Shown: in pieces, positions 25,410-34,834 of the stretch | How the letters are laid out: every line of letters begins with the position of its first letter | Numbering within the stretch: the first letter of the stretch is position 1 | From: Microcaldota archaeon | GTDB taxonomy: Archaea; Micrarchaeota; Micrarchaeia; Micrarchaeales; Micrarchaeaceae | Direction of reading: 5' to 3' | Assembly (NCBI GenBank): GCA_021822165.1 | Contig: JAKARM010000005.1 | Location: forward strand, 1-42,632 | Length of the DNA: 42,632 bases | Program-made: the position numbers and the translations under genes | Notes under the pieces: generated by a model | What the model was told of the DNA's origin: nothing | Databases searched by the model: none | Seen by the model: the letters and a program-made list of their open reading frames with translations, nothing else

Positions 25410-25668
25410 AATACGGGCTGCATTTCACCGGCAACTAAAGAATATTTAGGCGGTCTCGCCATTCAAAATACCCCTATTTGAGGAGTATAAAATTGCAACA
25501 ACCAACCAACAATTTTCATAAAAGAGATATAATATATCATTGTAAACAGAGTTTGGTACAGTGCTAACTTCTTGTTGCAACCTGAACGAACCGAAAGCCG
25601 AGATTCTACCGGATGGCACTATCTATCCTTACCTCTTTTTTACGAAGATAATAACCAACTGATTGGCA
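25410..25668. other. Left edge of AT-rich island, no gene seen
   Basis: AT-rich sequence with several TATA-like stretches (for example 25488-25494 and 25529-25540). No coding frame is convincing, and I saw no copy of the tRNA-Gly 3' end here or near the island's right edge. Confidence 0.4.
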
Positions 25669-25836
25669 ATGTGTCTGCATACAGAAGTCAATTTTACTAA
25701 AAGTTATGGTTATAAAAAGTTATACTGTAGTAATTTTTCTTGTAGCCACAACAGGCACTGTACTGATTGTTCAGCTTATGCAAGTGGGGTGGGTATAAAA
25801 TTCGATGATCGTTGTGAATATCTTAAAAAGATCTAA
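25669..25836 (+). CDS. Small Cys/His-rich protein (55 residues)
   Basis: Frame MCLHTEVNF ... KLYCSNFSCSHNRHCTDC ... DDRCEYLKKI with six Cys and four His in 55 residues. The block YCSNFSCSHNRHCTDC looks like a compact metal-binding or iron-sulfur module. No family recognised. It overlaps the start of the phosphohistidine-domain gene by 32 bases, suggesting translational coupling. The coherent Cys pattern argues against a random frame, but there is no clear ribosome-binding site. Confidence 0.5.
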   Translation: MCLHTEVNFTKSYGYKKLYCSNFSCSHNRHCTDCSAYASGVGIKFDDRCEYLKKI

Positions 25837-26176
25837 AAATAAAGAATTTATTAGACTTAAGGGTGCAACAGCGTTCCCTGGGGGTGCTTCTGGAAAAGCG
25901 GCGCTTTTCTTGGAAAATTCTGGCGAAAAAAATGTGAAAGGCAAATTTATACTTGTTGCAGAAGCCACTTATCCAGAATATTTACCAATAATGCTAAAGT
26001 CAAGCGGCATAGTTACTGAAATAGGCGGTATATTATCACATGCAGCCATAGTAGCGCGCGAGTTTAAGATACCTTGCGTTGTAGGGGTAAAAGGCGCAAC
26101 AAGTAAAATAAAAAGCGGAGATCAAGTCACTATAAGAAAAGGCGGTGTTGTAGTTGTTGAATGCGCGCGAAGATAA
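25805..26176 (+). CDS. Stand-alone phosphohistidine swivel (PEP-utilising mobile) domain
   Basis: 123 residues. This is the mobile domain that carries phosphate on a His in PEP synthase, pyruvate phosphate dikinase and rifampin phosphotransferase. The linker motif FPGGASGKA (about 24-32) and the active-site block GGILSHAAIVAREFKIPCVVG contain the phosphorylatable His79. It is normally fused to an ATP-grasp domain; here that domain is a separate gene at 27372. It sits between the Cys-rich mini-gene and the helical protein, overlapping both. Confidence 0.85.
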   Translation: MIVVNILKRSKNKEFIRLKGATAFPGGASGKAALFLENSGEKNVKGKFILVAEATYPEYLPIMLKSSGIVTEIGGILSHAAIVAREFKIPCVVGVKGATSKIKSGDQVTIRKGGVVVVECARR

Positions 26177-27014
26177 TATAGATTATCTGCTTAAGGACAA
26201 AACGATGCGGAGAGGCTTCCATTACTTATGCAGAAATTCTGATGAATTCAGCATAGAGGCAGCGAATCTAAAGAAAAATGTCTCCCTACTTGCAGATGGG
26301 ATATTAACAGAAGAAACGCTAAAAACGGTTAAACGATTTGTTGATAGGAGGATAGACAACTATTTAAAAGAATTAAGGGATGCAAATACATATGTTGCAA
26401 AAATTATCAACAGGATAAAAATTACCGACGCCGAGCTAATTCTCTCCGAGTTATACTTCAAATCCCAGATATACTTTTTGTATAATGAAGTATTTACATA
26501 TGGTTCAATGGATCTGATCCTTCGACATCAGATAACAAAAAGGAAATCAGATGTGGAAAAGACATTACTTGGGCTCTCTAATTATAAAGGCACCGCAGTA
26601 CACACATTATATAAAATGCTTGCGGGATTTCAAATTCCCAATACAAAACCAGAATTTATTAAATTGCGGAAAAGAGATAAAAAATTTAACAAAGCTGTCG
26701 ATAAACTTCGCATGCGCATCTCGGATTATTTTGAGAAAGAGCCCACACTCGACGAAATATATGATATGATTAAAGCATCAAATGAACACGTAAAATCGAT
26801 CCATACAGAAACAAACTATCCCCCTATAAAAAAGGCGATCGTTCAACTTTACGCATTCATTGTTGACACACAAAGAAAACTATTCATTTCCCAAAACATA
26901 TACATGAAGGCAGCGAAGAGAATATTTAAAAAATTTCCAAAGCTAAACGAGATGTATGGGGGACGAAAGTCAAAAGGGCCATTACTAAATCTCTATCTGA
27001 ATAAAGTGAAATAA
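26154..27014 (+). CDS. Helical protein of unknown function between split dikinase-like genes
   Basis: 286 residues, almost entirely helical and rich in Lys, no membrane segments and no Cys cluster. I do not recognise a family. It begins (TTG 26154) inside the end of the swivel-domain gene (23-base overlap); an internal ATG at 26205 is an alternative. In rifampin phosphotransferase a helical substrate-binding domain lies between ATP-grasp and swivel domains, so this gene may supply the substrate-binding part of a split enzyme. That is inference from order alone. Confidence 0.65.
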   Translation: MLNAREDNIDYLLKDKTMRRGFHYLCRNSDEFSIEAANLKKNVSLLADGILTEETLKTVKRFVDRRIDNYLKELRDANTYVAKIINRIKITDAELILSELYFKSQIYFLYNEVFTYGSMDLILRHQITKRKSDVEKTLLGLSNYKGTAVHTLYKMLAGFQIPNTKPEFIKLRKRDKKFNKAVDKLRMRISDYFEKEPTLDEIYDMIKASNEHVKSIHTETNYPPIKKAIVQLYAFIVDTQRKLFISQNIYMKAAKRIFKKFPKLNEMYGGRKSKGPLLNLYLNKVK

Positions 27015-27371
27015 TTAAAGAATTACAGGCTCTCCCAGTCCTATACCTATTATAATAGCTTTATATTCGACCTTGATACACAAAACGCATATGCTTATCG
27101 GATCTGAACAACAAAATAATTGAAGCAATTATCAATAAAAGAGTTGCAACGATGCATCAAAATAGTAAATACAACAAAAAGAGGGAAAGCATTAGGAAAT
27201 AGAGCCATTTACTAACGGCTTGCCCACGAATAAAATACTAAATAACTTGGATTCGGTTATTATATTTATGTGGCGGTGGTTGCAGAGTTCGCGCATTAAA
27301 ACAGACAGGAAATACCAATAGTTGTTATATAGTACAAAAGAATGACATAATCAACGCATTAAATAAAATTA
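27015..27371. other. Gap between helical gene and ATP-grasp gene
   Basis: About 350 AT-rich bases. A 34-codon stretch without a start codon (about 27090-27200, Lys/Asn-rich) might be a remnant. A TATA-like element (GTTATATAGT, about 27324-27333) lies 40-50 bases before the ATP-grasp gene. Nothing else seen. Confidence 0.4.
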
Positions 27372-28130
27372 GTGGTAATTGATTTGAGATTTATAATATT
27401 TCAAACCGGAAGAGGTTCTAGAAAAACCATCGGCGGCAAGGCATCCTCTCTTTTAGCACTATATAAAGGGGGATTCAACGTTCCCCCTTTTTTTATTCTC
27501 ACCACTAAAAGCATAGGCCAGCTAAAGAATCGGAAGATGTACAAAAAGTTTTCTCCGGAAATTGAGAAAGCGTACAAAACTATCATAAAAAATGGCGAGG
27601 TAGCTGTGCGTAGTTCTGCCACTATAGAAGATTCACGGGAATCAAGCTTTGCAGGCCAGTTCAAAACAATGTTAAATGTCGATATAGATAATGTATATGC
27701 CGCAATCAAAGCTGTTTACTCATCTATGCCTAATGTTGAAGCTACCTACGGACCAAGAATCAAATCAGGCATTAAGATTGAAATGGCAGTGATAATACAA
27801 AAGATGGTCGACTCGGATAAAGCAGGCGTCCTCTTCACAGCAGATCCGGTAAGCGGTGATAGGGGTAGAATGATAGTGGAGGGAGTCAAAGGGTTGGGCG
27901 AGGCTCTCGTTTCCGGAGCAAAAACACCCACCAGGTATTACGTTTCTAAAACACGCAACAGAATATTAGGCCACAGGGGGAACAACTTAATCACTCCAAG
28001 AGAGCTAAAACAGTTATGCAACATTGCCTTATCAATAGAAAAATTATTTGGTTATCCTCAAGACATAGAATTTGCAATAAAAAATGGTAATATCTATATA
28101 TTACAGAGTAGGGATATAACTACATTATAA
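27372..28130 (+). CDS. Stand-alone ATP-grasp (PEP/pyruvate-binding, PPDK_N) domain
   Basis: 252 residues. It matches the N-terminal ATP-grasp domain of dikinase-type enzymes: GGKASSLLALYKGGFNVPP (about 22-40), AVRSSATIEDSRESSFAGQF (about 77-96), DKAGVLFTADPVSGDRG (about 151-167), and the C-terminal QDIEFAIKNGNIYILQSRDIT. These are the nucleotide-binding and catalytic residues and all look intact. PEP synthase has a C-terminal TIM-barrel domain, which is missing here, so the nearest architecture is rifampin phosphotransferase cut into separate genes. GTG start at 27372. Confidence 0.87.
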   Translation: MVIDLRFIIFQTGRGSRKTIGGKASSLLALYKGGFNVPPFFILTTKSIGQLKNRKMYKKFSPEIEKAYKTIIKNGEVAVRSSATIEDSRESSFAGQFKTMLNVDIDNVYAAIKAVYSSMPNVEATYGPRIKSGIKIEMAVIIQKMVDSDKAGVLFTADPVSGDRGRMIVEGVKGLGEALVSGAKTPTRYYVSKTRNRILGHRGNNLITPRELKQLCNIALSIEKLFGYPQDIEFAIKNGNIYILQSRDITTL

Positions 28131-28678: not shown

Positions 28679-29809
28679 ATGTTGGGAGTTTATATACCAA
28701 ATCCTGACGGAACTTTTGGATACGTTGGCAACAGAATATTTAAGTCTATGGACAGAATTTCGCAAGAACTGCCCCCTAAATTATGTGAAGATAGGGTGGA
28801 TGAGCTGAGGAACGGCGAAGTCTGGGACAGGATTTCTAGGATAAATCATAGGATAGAAATTGTGACAAATGCTTACTTCGATGAGATAGGTAGCCTTTTT
28901 GCGCTGCTTCCGCAAACGACAAGGATGATTTCGTCTCCTGGTGCTGTATACGGGAAGGAAAAACTTCACTATACGCAGGATAGCGTTCCGATAAAGTTGA
29001 AATGGTTTGACTTAGATAAGGAGGTGTACCTTTCCGAGTCATCGCAGATATACCTAGAACTTTATCTGATTTCCAAAAATCTAAGAAGCGTTTATGCGAT
29101 ATACAATTCCTTCCGTAAGGAGCAATCCGACGCTACACATCTAGCAGAATTCCATCATATCGAGTTTGAGGGGAAAATCACACAGACGGAAAACAAGAAG
29201 ATAGCGTTAGGACTCTTGGCCCGAATCATAAACGAGCTGCTTAGGAAAAACAAAGAAGATCTGGCATACTTCCTTTATGATGAAGACATTGATTACTTGA
29301 AGAAATTCTCCTCGAACAAAAAAGGGACTGAACTGACCTTTGAACAGGCACTTGATCTTCTTTATAGGTCGACAAAGAATTCAAAGTACAAAAAATTTAC
29401 GAGTAAGTACTTCGGAGCTTGGGAAGAAGTGAAGCTCTCCAGCGAAGTAGGTGACATGACTCTTGTTTCTGAGTACCCTCTATATGAGGTTGCGTTCTAT
29501 CATGCCCCTATGGTAAAAAATGGAAATGAAGTGGCGGACAACACAGACATAATATGGCCTGCATATCGTGAGATAATTGGATCAGGGGGCAGAGTTAAAT
29601 CTCTGAGAGAGTTGGAATTGAAGGCCAAGAAGTTTAACCTTCCGAGGGAGGATTACAAAATATACTTTGCATCTAGGAAACCTAAGGACTACCAGCAGAC
29701 TTCTGGCTTTGGTCTTGGCTGGGAACGAATGCTACAAGGACTGCTAAAAATGCCATACATACATTCCGTATCTGCATTTCCTAGAGTTCATAGTACAATC
29801 TACCCATAA
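28679..29809 (+). CDS. AsnRS-like class II enzyme lacking the anticodon-binding domain
   Basis: 376 residues. Motif 2 is seen as SFRKEQSDATHLAEFHHIEF (about 143-162) and motif 3 as SGFGLGWERMLQGLLKM, with the AsnRS/AspRS-type EYPLYEVAFYHAP and DIIWPAYREI segments between them. The N-terminal OB-fold that reads the anticodon is absent, as in the archaeal asparagine synthetase AS-AR, which makes Asn from Asp via an adenylate. It could be that enzyme, but its position next to methyltransferases in an AT-rich island suggests an amide- or ester-forming ligase in a pathway. GGTGA lies five bases before the ATG. Confidence 0.82.
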   Translation: MLGVYIPNPDGTFGYVGNRIFKSMDRISQELPPKLCEDRVDELRNGEVWDRISRINHRIEIVTNAYFDEIGSLFALLPQTTRMISSPGAVYGKEKLHYTQDSVPIKLKWFDLDKEVYLSESSQIYLELYLISKNLRSVYAIYNSFRKEQSDATHLAEFHHIEFEGKITQTENKKIALGLLARIINELLRKNKEDLAYFLYDEDIDYLKKFSSNKKGTELTFEQALDLLYRSTKNSKYKKFTSKYFGAWEEVKLSSEVGDMTLVSEYPLYEVAFYHAPMVKNGNEVADNTDIIWPAYREIIGSGGRVKSLRELELKAKKFNLPREDYKIYFASRKPKDYQQTSGFGLGWERMLQGLLKMPYIHSVSAFPRVHSTIYP

Positions 29810-29835
29810 TAATACTAATAATAAGAGGCTACATT

Positions 29836-30747
29836 ATGAACCAGAAAATGAAAAGTTTGTATAAAGAATACCCTTGGCTTAAAATTACCACAACGATAAA
29901 AGAATATGTGGCTCCAGAATACTACAATAGGTTATTAAAAGATTACACATTTGATGGGAAAAAGGACACACAGTTCTTTGAAGAGTTTTTGAAGAGCGTT
30001 CATTCGAATGAAATAATTAATGCTCTAGAGCTTGGATGCGGATCGGGAAGAGCCACCAAAGTTTTTATAGATTCATTAAAGACAAAGGAGTTTAAATTAG
30101 AGTTAGTTGATTTAAGTAAAAGGATGCTTGACTTTAGTCAGAAGAAATTTAGAAACCGTAAAAATTTGGAATTCTTCGAATCAGACTCTATAGCTTTTCT
30201 TGAAAAAACCTCTGAAGTTTATGATATAATATTTAGTTTTTGGAGTTTTTCGCATTCTGTGCACCAAATCTTAATAAAAAAAGGCTATGGTGAAGGGAAA
30301 ATGTATATACAAAAGGTGATTAGAAAGGTGATAAAAGAAAATATGAAAAGATCTTCCAAGTTTTTTCTCATACATTTTGATTCACTTTCAGAAGAGCAGA
30401 AAATACTCATGAAGCAATGGAATAAAGTATTTCCAATTTACAATAATTTGGATTCTCAAAGCCCCTCGAAACTTCTTATAACTGAAGTGTTGGAAGAATT
30501 GTGTAAAGAAGGACTCATAAAGCTAAGGTCAAATTATTTTGAAGGTGATGCAATTACTTATTTATCAACTAACGAGGCATTGGAAGTATTCCTAAATTTC
30601 CACATGGAATCTTATTTTAATGAAAACTCATTACTTCCAGATATAATAGGTGAGTTGGAGAATTATTTTAGAAAATTTACCGATAAAGACGGCAGGATAA
30701 AGATTAAACCAGGTTGTTTTATATACGAAGTTGAGAGAAATGGTTGA
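29836..30747 (+). CDS. SAM-dependent methyltransferase (class I)
   Basis: 303 residues. ALELGCGSGRATK (about 65-77) is motif I, LELVDLSKRML holds the acidic residue of motif II, and IIFSFWSFSHS is in the place of motif IV. The C-terminal 120 residues are an unrecognised helical/beta extension. The substrate is unknown. It starts 26 bases after the AsnRS-like gene and its end overlaps the next gene by eight bases, so the three are one transcript. Confidence 0.8.
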   Translation: MNQKMKSLYKEYPWLKITTTIKEYVAPEYYNRLLKDYTFDGKKDTQFFEEFLKSVHSNEIINALELGCGSGRATKVFIDSLKTKEFKLELVDLSKRMLDFSQKKFRNRKNLEFFESDSIAFLEKTSEVYDIIFSFWSFSHSVHQILIKKGYGEGKMYIQKVIRKVIKENMKRSSKFFLIHFDSLSEEQKILMKQWNKVFPIYNNLDSQSPSKLLITEVLEELCKEGLIKLRSNYFEGDAITYLSTNEALEVFLNFHMESYFNENSLLPDIIGELENYFRKFTDKDGRIKIKPGCFIYEVERNG

Positions 30748-31903
30748 AAAAAAGTTCAATAAAAGAGATTTGTATACAAAACGGGAAGCAGATTTAGGGC
30801 TATCAGGATTGTCTGACAGGTTAGCTAAAGAGCCCCTAGAAAGAATCAAACCAATTCTCATTAGGGCAGCTAGAGAACGTTCGGCAGGTATATTGCCATA
30901 TGAACTTCTTAGAACGTATGAATCTAAGGGGGACTTCTATGGAGTAAGTAGTTTGGATCAAAAAGCGCTTTTTGAATTTGGATTATTATTTTATTCTGTT
31001 CTACCATCCTGTTTTGCAGCTGTTGAGGTTTCGCCTATCTCTCCCTTGGGACTTAACTCGGTGTTGACAAAATTAAGTCAAGATGTCTCGTTAGCTACGA
31101 TAAGAGGGTCTGAAGTTGTAAGCGATTCTACAACACCTTTGATATTGGAGTGTGCTAAAAGGCGCATGCGCCTGCTTAAGCAAAAAAGTACGAGATCCTC
31201 TCCTGTGGAACTAGCAACCATGAAGAGGGTTCTACGGCTCCAACCTTTTGATAAAGAAAAGGGATACATGCAACATTTTAATTTATTTGGTATCTGTTCT
31301 GCCGGACGGGATCATGAAAAAGAAGCTATCGCAATAAACTTTATCAGAGATCACATTTCTGTATGGCTGGATTTTATAGAATTATTAAGGAGTAAAGGAT
31401 ATATTTTCAATGACGTTTCAGTAAAGCTTTCCGATATTAGACTACTAGAACGTGTAATCGAATACTTTGATCTCCCAAGGGAAGTTATTAATAGAAACGC
31501 TTTTAACGAGAATTTCGATTTCATTGGAGAATATAAATTACCATTGCCGGCGGAGGTAGAGTTCATTAATGAAATGATCCAGAACAATCATGACAAACCA
31601 TACATTACTTCTAGGCAGTCCTACTTGTTAGCTATCGAAAAAAGAATCTTTGATCCTCTTAAGATCAAATACCCGTCTGTTCGTTTTTCTTTTGATTTTG
31701 CAAGGAAATCTGGATTAGGCTATTATGACAAGGCTTGCTACCATATATTTGGATCAAACCATAAAGGAGAAGTCATCCAACTTGTAGACGGTGGATCCGT
31801 TGACTGGCTAGCGAGAATCACGAACAGCAATACAGAGCGTGCTGTGGTGTCGGGATTCGGTGCAGAGCTCATTCAAAAGCTTTTTCGTACAGATCACGAT
31901 TGA
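30740..31903 (+). CDS. Divergent class II synthetase-like protein (HisRS/HisZ-like core suspected)
   Basis: 387 residues. The blocks VEVSPISPLGLNSVL (about 95-109), TIRGSEVVSDSTTPL (about 120-134), HFNLFGICSAGRD (motif 2-like, about 179-191), DFARKSGLGYYDKACYHI (about 319-336), LVDGGSVDWL and VVSGFGAEL (motif 3-like) follow the order of HisRS/HisZ catalytic cores (GLDYY, GGRYD and the final G-x-G). No anticodon-binding domain is apparent. I do not know a named family for it; class II membership is inferred. ATG 30740 overlaps the methyltransferase stop; a TTG at 30731 is also in frame. Confidence 0.6.
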   Translation: MVEKKFNKRDLYTKREADLGLSGLSDRLAKEPLERIKPILIRAARERSAGILPYELLRTYESKGDFYGVSSLDQKALFEFGLLFYSVLPSCFAAVEVSPISPLGLNSVLTKLSQDVSLATIRGSEVVSDSTTPLILECAKRRMRLLKQKSTRSSPVELATMKRVLRLQPFDKEKGYMQHFNLFGICSAGRDHEKEAIAINFIRDHISVWLDFIELLRSKGYIFNDVSVKLSDIRLLERVIEYFDLPREVINRNAFNENFDFIGEYKLPLPAEVEFINEMIQNNHDKPYITSRQSYLLAIEKRIFDPLKIKYPSVRFSFDFARKSGLGYYDKACYHIFGSNHKGEVIQLVDGGSVDWLARITNSNTERAVVSGFGAELIQKLFRTDHD

Positions 31904-31959
31904 CACAGATTTATTAAGCTTTTACACAGAAGTTTTAGATAGATAAGATTGGTTTTACT

Positions 31960-32781
31960 ATGAACAAAATACGTGCTAAGGACATAGAAAACCTTGATTA
32001 TAATCAGTTAATTGGGGTTGTAAGGGAAACAAATCGTCCTCCTGGGGGAAAAAACAGCGTCTTCGAAGTTGTAAATAGACTCCATTTATCAAAAGACAGT
32101 AAGATATTAGAGATAGGAACAAGTACGGGATTTACTTCAATAGAAGTAAGCAGACTAGTTAAATGTCCTATAACTTCAATAGATATAAATGAGACGAGTT
32201 TGAAAGAAGCAAAGAACCGAGCAATGGGCGAAGGGTATACAAATATTGATTATGTTAAAGCGAACGTGAATAGTCTCCCTTTCGATAACGAATCTTTTAA
32301 TGTAGTTATTGTTGGGAATGTCTTTTCTTTATTGACTAATAAAACAAAGGCATTGGAGGAGTGTATGCGTGTATGTAAGAAGGATGGATTTATTGTTGCA
32401 ATACCTATGTATTACGTAAAAATACCCTCTGAAGAATTGGTTAAAAAAGTTTCTAATGCAATAAAAACGAACATAATTCCGATGTATAAGTCAGACTGGA
32501 TAAAATTTTTCACAGTACCAGAACTTGAAATTTATTGGGCTAAAGATTTTAAGTTTGATTACATAGAAGACGACGTTGTCAAATCTTTTACAGTAAAAAT
32601 AATGAATAGACCTCATTTAAAAAGCATGGATATGGGAGTATTTATAAAATTAAAGCGTAAGTATGAAAAATATGTGTTCCTATTCCGGGATAATCTATCA
32701 CAGGTAGGTTATACCATATTTATCTTATCTAAGAAGAAAATCTGGGAGGATCCTGAGTTATACACCTCAAAAGAGATATAA
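31960..32781 (+). CDS. SAM-dependent methyltransferase (Methyltransf_11 type)
   Basis: 273 residues. ILEIGTSTGFTSIEVSRL (motif I, about 49-66), ITSIDINETSLKEA (motif II) and SLPFDNESFNVVIVGNVFS (motif IV region) define a class I methyltransferase. A C-terminal part of about 110 residues is helical and unrecognised. It follows the HisRS-like gene after 56 bases and converges on the S66 peptidase gene. Substrate unknown; presumably part of the same pathway. Confidence 0.85.
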   Translation: MNKIRAKDIENLDYNQLIGVVRETNRPPGGKNSVFEVVNRLHLSKDSKILEIGTSTGFTSIEVSRLVKCPITSIDINETSLKEAKNRAMGEGYTNIDYVKANVNSLPFDNESFNVVIVGNVFSLLTNKTKALEECMRVCKKDGFIVAIPMYYVKIPSEELVKKVSNAIKTNIIPMYKSDWIKFFTVPELEIYWAKDFKFDYIEDDVVKSFTVKIMNRPHLKSMDMGVFIKLKRKYEKYVFLFRDNLSQVGYTIFILSKKKIWEDPELYTSKEI

Positions 32782-32866
32782 GATATGCGTCCAATACATA
32801 GAAGTTATTCATCGTAAGGCGGGTGTGCCTGTCTTTTATAGTCTTTATTGTATCTGGAGAAAGTCG

Positions 32867-33886
32867 TTATTTAACTCCCGACTCTAGGAAATCAAATGTG
32901 TTTGCTTCAGAATCAATGACAACCTCTACTCCGATAGGGATTGTGATCTGTGGGTCAGTGTGTCCAATGTCTGCTCCGTATAATATTGGAAAACCATACT
33001 CTTTTGTTCTTTCTAATAATTTTCTCTTTAATAATTTAGTATCTCCATCGCTATAATTATAAGGTCTGCCAAAAATCAAGCCTTTGATTTGACTAAAAAC
33101 CCCTAAGATATTCAATTGTTCTAAATACCCGTCAACATAGGCTAATGGGTCACCCTCGCCAAAAATCTGCCCTTCTGATAATTCTAAAAATAATATTTTT
33201 CCTTTATAATCTGGCCAATATCTCGTTCCAGGTAAGTGGACAACTGATTCCAGGCATCCACCAATGATTTTACCTTTTGCCCTTCCGTTTCTTAACCATT
33301 CAAACCCATTATTACGTTTTAATCTTCTAGGTCTTGTCAAATCTAATTTTTTACTCCAATCTAAAATTTCGTCCGTCCAATTTTGTGAAGGGGATACTTT
33401 TCCAATTGGCTCTGTTGTCGTCAGCGCTTTGTCAAAATATTCTAGTGTATATTCAAGTAGCTTCGGATACTCTCCGAACTGGGTTGCTATACATGGTCCA
33501 TAAAAGGTTACAAGATCCGATTGAGTATAAAATGCATAATGTAGGACAGAATTATCTGAGTAGCCACAGAATATTTTAGGATTCTGCTTTATTTTTTCGA
33601 AATCCAGATACCTTAATGTTTGGTTTGCTACTGTTCCACCAGTCAGCGCTATTATTGCGGTTATTTTTGTATCCAAAAATGCAGCCATTATATCTTTTGC
33701 CCGTTCTTTAGATGGGGCAGATTCCCAACCTTCAACCTTCCGTGCAGATGGGAACTCTTTTATTTTATAGCCCAATGACTTGAGAGATATTATTGCATTA
33801 TCAAGCCTATGTGAGAAATATAATCCTGCAGAAGGGGCAATAATCGCTATTGTATCTCCTTTCTTAAGTTTTTTTGGTTTTTGCAT
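32867..33886 (-). CDS. S66-family serine carboxypeptidase, MccF-like
   Basis: 339 residues. The S66 family contains LD-carboxypeptidases (peptidoglycan recycling) and MccF, which cleaves the amide bond of microcin C and related aminoacyl-nucleotides and so gives immunity. The triad is visible as Ser110 in CGYSDNS, Glu235 in ILFLELSEG and His309 in IGHTDP, and the length and the segment WLRNGRAKGKIIGG resemble MccF more than LdcA. Archaea lack murein, so peptidoglycan recycling is unlikely. It converges on the methyltransferase genes of the island and has its own TATA-like promoter close to the ATG. Confidence 0.83.
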   Translation of the reverse strand: MQKPKKLKKGDTIAIIAPSAGLYFSHRLDNAIISLKSLGYKIKEFPSARKVEGWESAPSKERAKDIMAAFLDTKITAIIALTGGTVANQTLRYLDFEKIKQNPKIFCGYSDNSVLHYAFYTQSDLVTFYGPCIATQFGEYPKLLEYTLEYFDKALTTTEPIGKVSPSQNWTDEILDWSKKLDLTRPRRLKRNNGFEWLRNGRAKGKIIGGCLESVVHLPGTRYWPDYKGKILFLELSEGQIFGEGDPLAYVDGYLEQLNILGVFSQIKGLIFGRPYNYSDGDTKLLKRKLLERTKEYGFPILYGADIGHTDPQITIPIGVEVVIDSEANTFDFLESGVK

Positions 33887-34138: not shown

Positions 34139-34834
34139 GCATTATATGCGGTAAGTAGAAGCAGAACCGTTGTAGATGTTGCAGGTATTATTGTGGTTAA
34201 AGAATCAACATCTACGATTAAATACGTGGGTGGAAATCTGAAAAGGGTATTTCTGATAAACCATGAAGTGGAAGATCGTCATTAATCACATAAGAAGACG
34301 AAAAAGAAATGCAGTATCGATGAAAAAGATCTGAAGAAGTATGGGATAAATGTCATGTCTTACACAACTGCCAAACTTTAGGGATATTTTATGAAGTTTC
34401 ATTCCAAGTGTATAGACAAAGAAACATTAAGAACGCATCTCAAAAAGGTGGGTGCGCATTCCATAACGGTGCAGAAGAGATACAAAGAGGCCGACGAAGA
34501 AAAACAGATTGAATTTGCATGGAATTTCTTGCATGTGGCAGTCAATTATGGGTTCACAAAAATTCTATTTGTCGACGAAATGTCGGTGTTCGCTTCAGAG
34601 CATAGCGGTTACGGGTGGACATTCAATCAAGGGTCCATTGTTGACGTTCCTCAACGCAATAAAATAAAGACGAATATTTCGAAACAGAGAGGTTTTGGAC
34701 GGAAAAGTAATAGAAATCGTAAGGAAAAGCACAAAAGTGGGTTGTTTATATCGTTCTTGAAAAAAGTAGAGGCGACATATTCCGACAACAAAATACCGAT
34801 GTGTATGGATAATGGTAAGATATATCATGCATGA
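34139..34834 (+). pseudogene. IS630-family transposase remnant
   Basis: Conceptual translation gives an N-terminal helix-turn-helix (SRSRTVVDVAGIIVVKEST, about 34152-34208), then, after at least two in-frame stops (near 34283 and 34379), the intact stretch from the ATG at 34391 with the catalytic-domain block KILFVDEMSVFASEHSGYGW, first Asp/Glu region of the DDE core. The C-terminal part with the last acidic residue is degraded (CMDNGKIYHA). It is a dead mobile element marking the right edge of the island. Confidence 0.75.

Follow-up and report, generated by a model that had tools for sequence, protein, structure and literature searches.

A five-gene cassette in a small archaeal genome with a core related to the agrocin 84 genes: a probable AgnA-type nucleotide-antibiotic pathway

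The window analysed here is a stretch of 42,632 nucleotides, contig JAKARM010000005.1 of the Microcaldota archaeon assembly GCA_021822165.1 (784 kb in 37 contigs, with GatD and similar archaeal markers present), and at positions 28679-33886 it contains a cassette of five open reading frames (ORFs). They encode an enzyme like asparaginyl-tRNA synthetase (AsnRS), a methyltransferase (MT1), a protein like histidyl-tRNA synthetase (HisRS) and a second methyltransferase (MT2), all on the + strand, followed by a convergent S66 peptidase on the - strand. The core genes are related to those of agrocin 84, a crown-gall antibiotic of bacteria, and the cassette therefore probably directs both the synthesis and the detoxification of an amino-acid–nucleotide poison aimed against a tRNA synthetase. 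We thus consider it quite probable that this is an archaeal nucleotide-antibiotic pathway of the AgnA type (agrocin 84- or phosmidosine-like), whose product would be an N-aminoacyl phosphoramidate cleaved by the S66 enzyme. The positions given in the initial annotation, which was made from the sequence without database searches, were confirmed:

28679..29809, + strand: AsnRS-like enzyme of the AgnA type (376 aa), catalytic domain only
29836..30747, + strand: MT1, class I S-adenosylmethionine (SAM) methyltransferase
30740..31903, + strand: HisRS-like protein (387 aa), with ATG at 30740 (the listed ORF starts with TTG at 30731)
31960..32781, + strand: MT2, SAM methyltransferase, a marker of AgnA-type clusters
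32867..33886, - strand: S66 peptidase of the MccF type, triad Ser110/Glu235/His309

The AsnRS-like enzyme (Pfam PF00152, E 6e-26) aligns by its residues 51-375 with residues 131-450 of AsnRS, so that it lacks the N-terminal OB-fold anticodon domain, as had been stated in the initial annotation; that description matches the one given in a review for AgnA, a truncated AsnRS without the anticodon domain that turned into a biosynthetic enzyme (PMC4392301). The class II motif 2 (Arg146, Glu148) and motif 3 (Glu349, Arg350) are intact, and Glu162 and Arg305 correspond in the alignment to Glu228 and Arg364 of the Pyrococcus enzyme, the pair by which AsnRS reads the asparagine amide (PMC7387524); the ATP-binding motif residues and this pair are conserved in all AgnA-type members aligned. 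Against their own profile, the AsnRS-like proteins of the cassettes in six carrier genomes reached 511-566 bits, compared with 159 at most for the housekeeping AsnRS of these genomes, and the cassette proteins formed a single clade (support 100/99). A plasmid search with one of them matched agnA, the 'Agrocin84-synthetase' of pAgK84, as well as cluster genes of Streptomyces, Xenorhabdus, Peribacillus, Exiguobacterium, Pantoea and Bradyrhizobium. In the tree, 16 AgnA-type proteins, including AgnA and six other plasmid-cluster homologs, fell into one clade (99/98), separate from the housekeeping AsnRS and aspartyl-tRNA synthetases of the same genomes; inside it the five archaeal proteins make one subclade (100/100), and the Patescibacteria protein clusters with that of Bradyrhizobium. 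One distant AsnRS-like match was found in viral contigs. On the Pantoea plasmid (L051 9722-12233), a GNAT domain is followed by a fused AgnA-type enzyme, with an MFS transporter adjoining and no MT2 nearby, which is possibly a minimal version.

MT2 shows 39.6% identity to the methyltransferase located beside agnA on pAgK84. It accompanied the AgnA-type gene in nearly all cases examined; ten plasmid records gave an MT2 homolog at E<1e-25, and each of them is an AgnA-type cluster. Between the AsnRS-like gene and MT2, the window has MT1 and the HisRS-like gene. The methyltransferase tree has long branches and hence carries little information. In the S66 peptidase, the triad proposed in the initial annotation was borne out by the alignment of 11 proteins, Ser110 and His309 being invariant and Glu235 replaced by Asp in two. 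Its best PDB matches belong to the MccF family (E 1e-58 to 1e-43), against E 3e-26 (6uuk) and 4e-15 (5z01) for the murein carboxypeptidases, and the identity is 36% to AgnC5, the MccF-like protein of agrocin 84, and 24% to ldcA; LdcA is thus not the closest relative, and the earlier judgement that an LD-carboxypeptidase role is unlikely holds. MccF is known to cleave the amide bond of acyl phosphoramidates (PMC9239234, PMC3817062). The immunity to agrocin 84 is credited to AgnB2 (PMC4392301), and AgnC5 therefore need not serve immunity; as an alternative, the S66 enzyme may perform a biosynthetic step freeing the nitrogen from an Asp-N-P intermediate.

The HisRS-like protein gave a sub-threshold Pfam HisRS match (E 0.007), whereas the profile-profile comparison with genuine HisRS gave probabilities of 96-97% (E 5e-9 to 6e-11); as judged from these profiles it is a true HisRS homolog, and no anticodon domain was found in this comparison, in agreement with the initial annotation. 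The catalytic HisA Arg preceding GLxYY is Ser in the window protein (Ser or Ala among the cassette proteins); Gln168 takes the place of the motif 2 Glu, and Leu377 that of the motif 3 Arg, which is lost in the cassette proteins. The protein thus differs from housekeeping HisRS by the TIGR00442 cut-off, the HisA Arg, the motif 2 and 3 residues and the anticodon domain, and a housekeeping HisRS exists in each carrier host, above the TIGR00442 cut-off in five of six and split across two contigs in G197. Amino acid activation is accordingly not supported for the HisRS-like paralog, which does not look adenylating, the residues for it being lost. This loss parallels AcmF of the ascamycin pathway, a truncated enzyme like alanyl-tRNA synthetase (AlaRS) in which the adenylation residues are missing and which transfers alanine from Ala-tRNA onto the nitrogen of a nucleoside sulfamate, with an intact AlaRS alongside (PMC12945691). 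The HisRS-like protein has the corresponding traits of a truncated class II synthetase-like protein with lost adenylation residues and a separate active synthetase in the cell, and on this analogy we propose that it may be an aminoacyl-tRNA-dependent transferase; AlaRS ancestry was not found, and since the protein derives from HisRS it would be an AcmF analogue and not a member of the AcmF family.

Neither phages nor viral contigs gave a HisRS-like match. Weak matches in Patescibacteria were short and lay mostly within frames as long as those of HisRS; they were taken for ordinary HisRS. A shorter lone homolog, with the motif 3 Arg apparently kept, occurs on a Chroococcidiopsis plasmid (L006 14001-14960), where the neighbours include no AgnA, MT2 or S66. 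In the Erysipelotrichaceae cluster, a run of about 17 A bases (L005 7067-7083) splits the HisRS-like frame, the frameshift being natural or an assembly error.

The search for the HisRS-like protein in 196 genomes of the phylum revealed one further carrier besides the window genome (2/196), G010 of another genus, which has all five genes in identical order and orientation at 59-70% identity, with unrelated flanks; the cassette is therefore more than a chance arrangement. In a genome-wide scan, a Patescibacteria contig showed the HisRS-like, S66 and AsnRS-like genes within 3.9 kb, the first two being close to the archaeal ones (55% and 50%, respectively); given the AsnRS-like grouping with Bradyrhizobium, the locus is, on sequence grounds, a mosaic. 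An Erysipelotrichaceae contig contains all five genes together with an amidohydrolase, a nucleosidase and a GNAT domain fused to MT1, and two further Bacilli genomes combine the AsnRS-like enzyme, MT2 and the HisRS-like protein with one S66 gene or two and with a P-loop kinase, so that the HisRS-like, AsnRS-like, MT2 and S66 genes occur together in three Bacilli loci. The carriers make up 2 of the 85 genomes of the family (a third match was weak and HisRS-length) and 3 of the 337 genomes of the Bacilli order, and such a rare and patchy distribution points to horizontal spread of the cassette. In all three Bacilli genomes (L005, L025, L026) a RelA/SpoT-like gene stands immediately upstream of the cluster, so that the neighbourhood of the insertion is conserved. 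Thus, the genes co-occur in distant archaea and bacteria, and the view of the initial annotation that the cluster is a functional unit gains support from this co-occurrence and from the order conserved in G010.

MT1 was seen only in the window, in G010 and in the Erysipelotrichaceae cluster, where the fused GNAT domain is of the RimL/MccE type, and it has no plasmid relatives at E<1e-12. We propose that MT1 may act on an alpha-amine; this role is possible for it and for the fused GNAT domain because acyl phosphoramidate compounds lose their activity when the alpha-amine is acetylated, and two model compounds no longer inhibited synthetases once they were N-methylated (PMC3817062).

Across the AgnA-type clusters, the core is constant while the second synthetase-like gene varies, being of the His, Pro, Ala, Lys or Leu type. 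The HisRS-like variant is found in the window, G010, Patescibacteria and Bacilli; a variant like prolyl-tRNA synthetase (ProRS), with a molybdenum hydroxylase, in Streptomyces (sp. NBC_01707 plasmid, L053) and the archaeal genome G1314; an intact AlaRS with a truncated AlaRS-like protein in Peribacillus and, by annotation, in Exiguobacterium; a lysyl-tRNA synthetase (LysRS) in the archaeal genome G114; and a leucyl-tRNA synthetase (LeuRS) in agrocin 84 and in Xenorhabdus, the latter also with a ProRS-like fragment. The G1314 cluster (L061 5695-12144) consists of the ProRS-like gene, the AgnA-type enzyme, MT2, S66 and the molybdenum hydroxylase, and its gene set equals that of the Streptomyces plasmid. 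Phosmidosine is the N-prolyl phosphoramidate of 8-oxoadenosine, and the combination of a ProRS-like protein with a purine-type hydroxylase would therefore fit its synthesis; we infer that both clusters are phosmidosine-like, the one in G1314 being a candidate archaeal pathway of this kind. This phosphoramidate nucleotide is presumed to inhibit ProRS (PMC6429109, PMC7689648).

The sister archaeal clusters give a further hint on the product class. In G058 a HIT protein is encoded directly downstream of the AsnRS-like gene and in G114 upstream on the opposite strand, both with HxHxK and a Glu five residues before the motif, the signature of the MccH phosphoramidases that cleave aspartamide-adenylate (PMC7157772), while the HIT proteins found in the window genome (G000), G010 and G008 have HxHxH. 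These genes are suggestive of a phosphoramidate product. At L060 5557-11438 and L062 7531-12058, two archaeal clusters of the AgnA type carry genes for an amidohydrolase and an HxHxK HIT protein, and of these clusters one adjoins LysRS genes and the other a full AsnRS; no S66 gene was seen within the stretches examined.

From the gene content we infer the reaction steps, the maker of the phosphorus–nitrogen bond, the acyl group, the target and the product as follows. The AsnRS-like enzyme would bind ATP and asparagine or aspartate and supply a nucleotide with a phosphorus–nitrogen group; the HisRS-like protein, its fold being kept, would shift an aminoacyl group, histidyl by descent only, from aminoacyl-tRNA to that nitrogen, as AcmF does on the dealanylascamycin sulfamate. 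MT2 would methylate the core, perhaps at a phosphoramidate oxygen, and MT1 would modify the aminoacyl part, perhaps at the alpha-amine, while the S66 enzyme would cleave the acyl-N bond and thereby protect the host. The product would be a stable, uncleavable mimic of an aminoacyl-adenylate blocking a tRNA synthetase, perhaps HisRS. More tentatively, it may be suggested that small-genome archaea hold interchangeable cassettes, in which the AgnA-type core builds the phosphorus–nitrogen nucleotide, S66 serves both as a pathway step (Asp-N-P cleavage) and as immunity, and a swappable degenerate synthetase adds an amino acid from tRNA and so predicts the acyl group and the poisoned synthetase.

Several points weigh against the AgnA-type pathway. 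The identity of the window AsnRS-like protein to AgnA is low (25%), and the structures predicted by AlphaFold for the HisRS-like and the AsnRS-like protein (pLDDT 44 and 34) are too poor to use. The imidazole-reading residues of HisRS appear changed in the alignment, so that the acyl group may not be histidine. The window cassette has no exporter. The HxHxK HIT genes also occur in cluster-free genomes, so that the HIT link is support and not proof. As to the role of MT2, we know of no phosphoramidate methyl in agrocin 84. The E. coli MccF accepts chiefly Asp and Glu adenylates as substrates (PMC3817062). The aminoacyl-nucleotide type of product supposed in the initial annotation is nonetheless retained as the best reading, in view of the kinship of the AsnRS-like, MT2 and S66 proteins with those of agrocin 84.

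That substrate preference, together with the Asp phosphoramidate borne by microcin C, the intact ATP motifs and Asn-reading Glu/Arg pair of the AsnRS-like enzyme and the loss of several catalytic residues in the HisRS-like protein, would also suit a pathway of the same class in which the AsnRS-like enzyme determines an aspartate or asparagine product, a warhead like that of microcin C, and the HisRS-like protein is regulatory or accessory, like HisZ. We regard this as unlikely, because the second synthetase-like gene changes over a constant core, the ProRS-like gene of both Streptomyces and the sister archaeon is accompanied by the molybdenum hydroxylase, as prolyl 8-oxoadenosine phosmidosine would need, and a degenerate synthetase can act as a transferase, as AcmF demonstrates. 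Somewhat less likely again is an island of resistance only, in which S66 and the synthetase paralogs would shield the host against aminoacyl-nucleotide antibiotics of its neighbours and nothing is made: MccF, MccH and GNAT enzymes do confer resistance by themselves in other hosts (PMC9239234, PMC7157772), and the missing exporter and the patchy distribution agree with it, but AgnA is described as biosynthetic (PMC4392301), MT2 was seen on plasmids solely in AgnA-type clusters, and the HisRS-like protein lacks the residues for a resistant HisRS, the hosts having a normal one. A chance grouping of an ordinary asparagine synthetase A, two unrelated methyltransferases and a generic S66 without shared context, which the initial annotation had itself considered, is suggested by public annotation, where several AgnA-type proteins are named 'asparagine synthetase A', and by the best NCBIfam match of AgnA, which is that model, below its cut-off; it is highly improbable, being refuted by the conserved order in G010, the co-occurrence in bacteria of two phyla and the AgnA clade apart from housekeeping enzymes. 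A role in tRNA or elongation-factor modification found no support and was rejected.

As to the surroundings, the GC content is 0.32-0.39 across about 26-35 kb and 0.42-0.59 in the remaining window, which bears out the AT-richness reported initially; the five ORFs are a real, mobile unit. One further feature, a sign of mobility outside the pathway, marks the downstream edge of the AT-rich island:

34391..34834, + strand: IS630-family transposase fragment

The scan with a defence-system library gave a generic methyltransferase match and nothing else. Upstream, the AT-rich stretch 25572-28130 encodes a SPASM-type tail, a phosphoenolpyruvate (PEP)-utiliser mobile domain, a PPDK_N ATP-binding domain standing alone and a helical protein that occurs in G085 as a fusion with a radical-SAM domain, and it looks like the remnants of a further cassette. 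These PEP-synthase-like genes were left out of the pathway in view of the G085 fusion and because none were seen beside the other AgnA clusters read.

The pathway had been put forward as undescribed. This does not stand for the core, which is akin to the agrocin 84 genes, but no description of the HisRS-like variant or of archaeal and Patescibacteria carriers was found in the open-access literature searched, which, the coverage being partial, is weak evidence. To our knowledge, there is no archaeal case of such aminoacyl-nucleotide antibiotic chemistry, and the cassette would extend the 'Trojan horse'-type nucleotide antibiotics from bacteria to archaea with tiny genomes and Patescibacteria. 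It would also offer a testable rule, by which the amino acid and perhaps the target can be read from the second synthetase-like gene; the HisRS-like protein may be the first aminoacyl transferase of the AcmF-like kind to derive from HisRS, and small five-gene systems are suitable for studying how agrocin-type phosphoramidate bonds form.

Among the known systems, microcin C (mcc) shares the MccF-type peptidase, the MccE-type GNAT domain of the Erysipelotrichaceae cluster and the MccH-type HIT proteins of two archaeal clusters. It differs in that no ThiF domain of the MccB type was found among the cassette and adjacent proteins and no precursor peptide gene was recognised, very short ORFs (MccA type) not having been searched exhaustively; as ThiF-type MccB is lacking, the phosphorus–nitrogen bond must arise otherwise than in microcin C. 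Ascamycin (AcmF/AcmD) likewise has a truncated class II synthetase-like protein with lost adenylation residues, the acyl transfer to a nucleotide being proposed here for the HisRS-like protein, but AcmF is AlaRS-derived and has a sulfamate acceptor, while the window protein is HisRS-derived. The clusters that we call phosmidosine-like share the AgnA-type enzyme, the MT2-type methyltransferase, S66 and a divergent second class II synthetase, and differ by the ProRS-like protein in place of the HisRS-like one and by the added molybdenum hydroxylase. In agrocin 84 (agn operon, pAgK84), the AgnA without anticodon domain, the adjacent SAM methyltransferase (40% to MT2), AgnC5 (36% to S66) and a second synthetase gene are all alike, but the latter encodes a full LeuRS (AgnB2, immunity); AgnB2 and agnC1-C7/D/E, for the methylpentanamide and sugar-phosphate parts, have no counterpart in the cassette except the AgnC5-like S66. 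The kind of pathway is thus already known from bacteria, and the window combines its AgnA-clade AsnRS-like enzyme without anticodon domain, MT2-type methyltransferase and MccF/AgnC5-type S66 with a HisRS-like protein and MT1 of its own, unlike agrocin 84.

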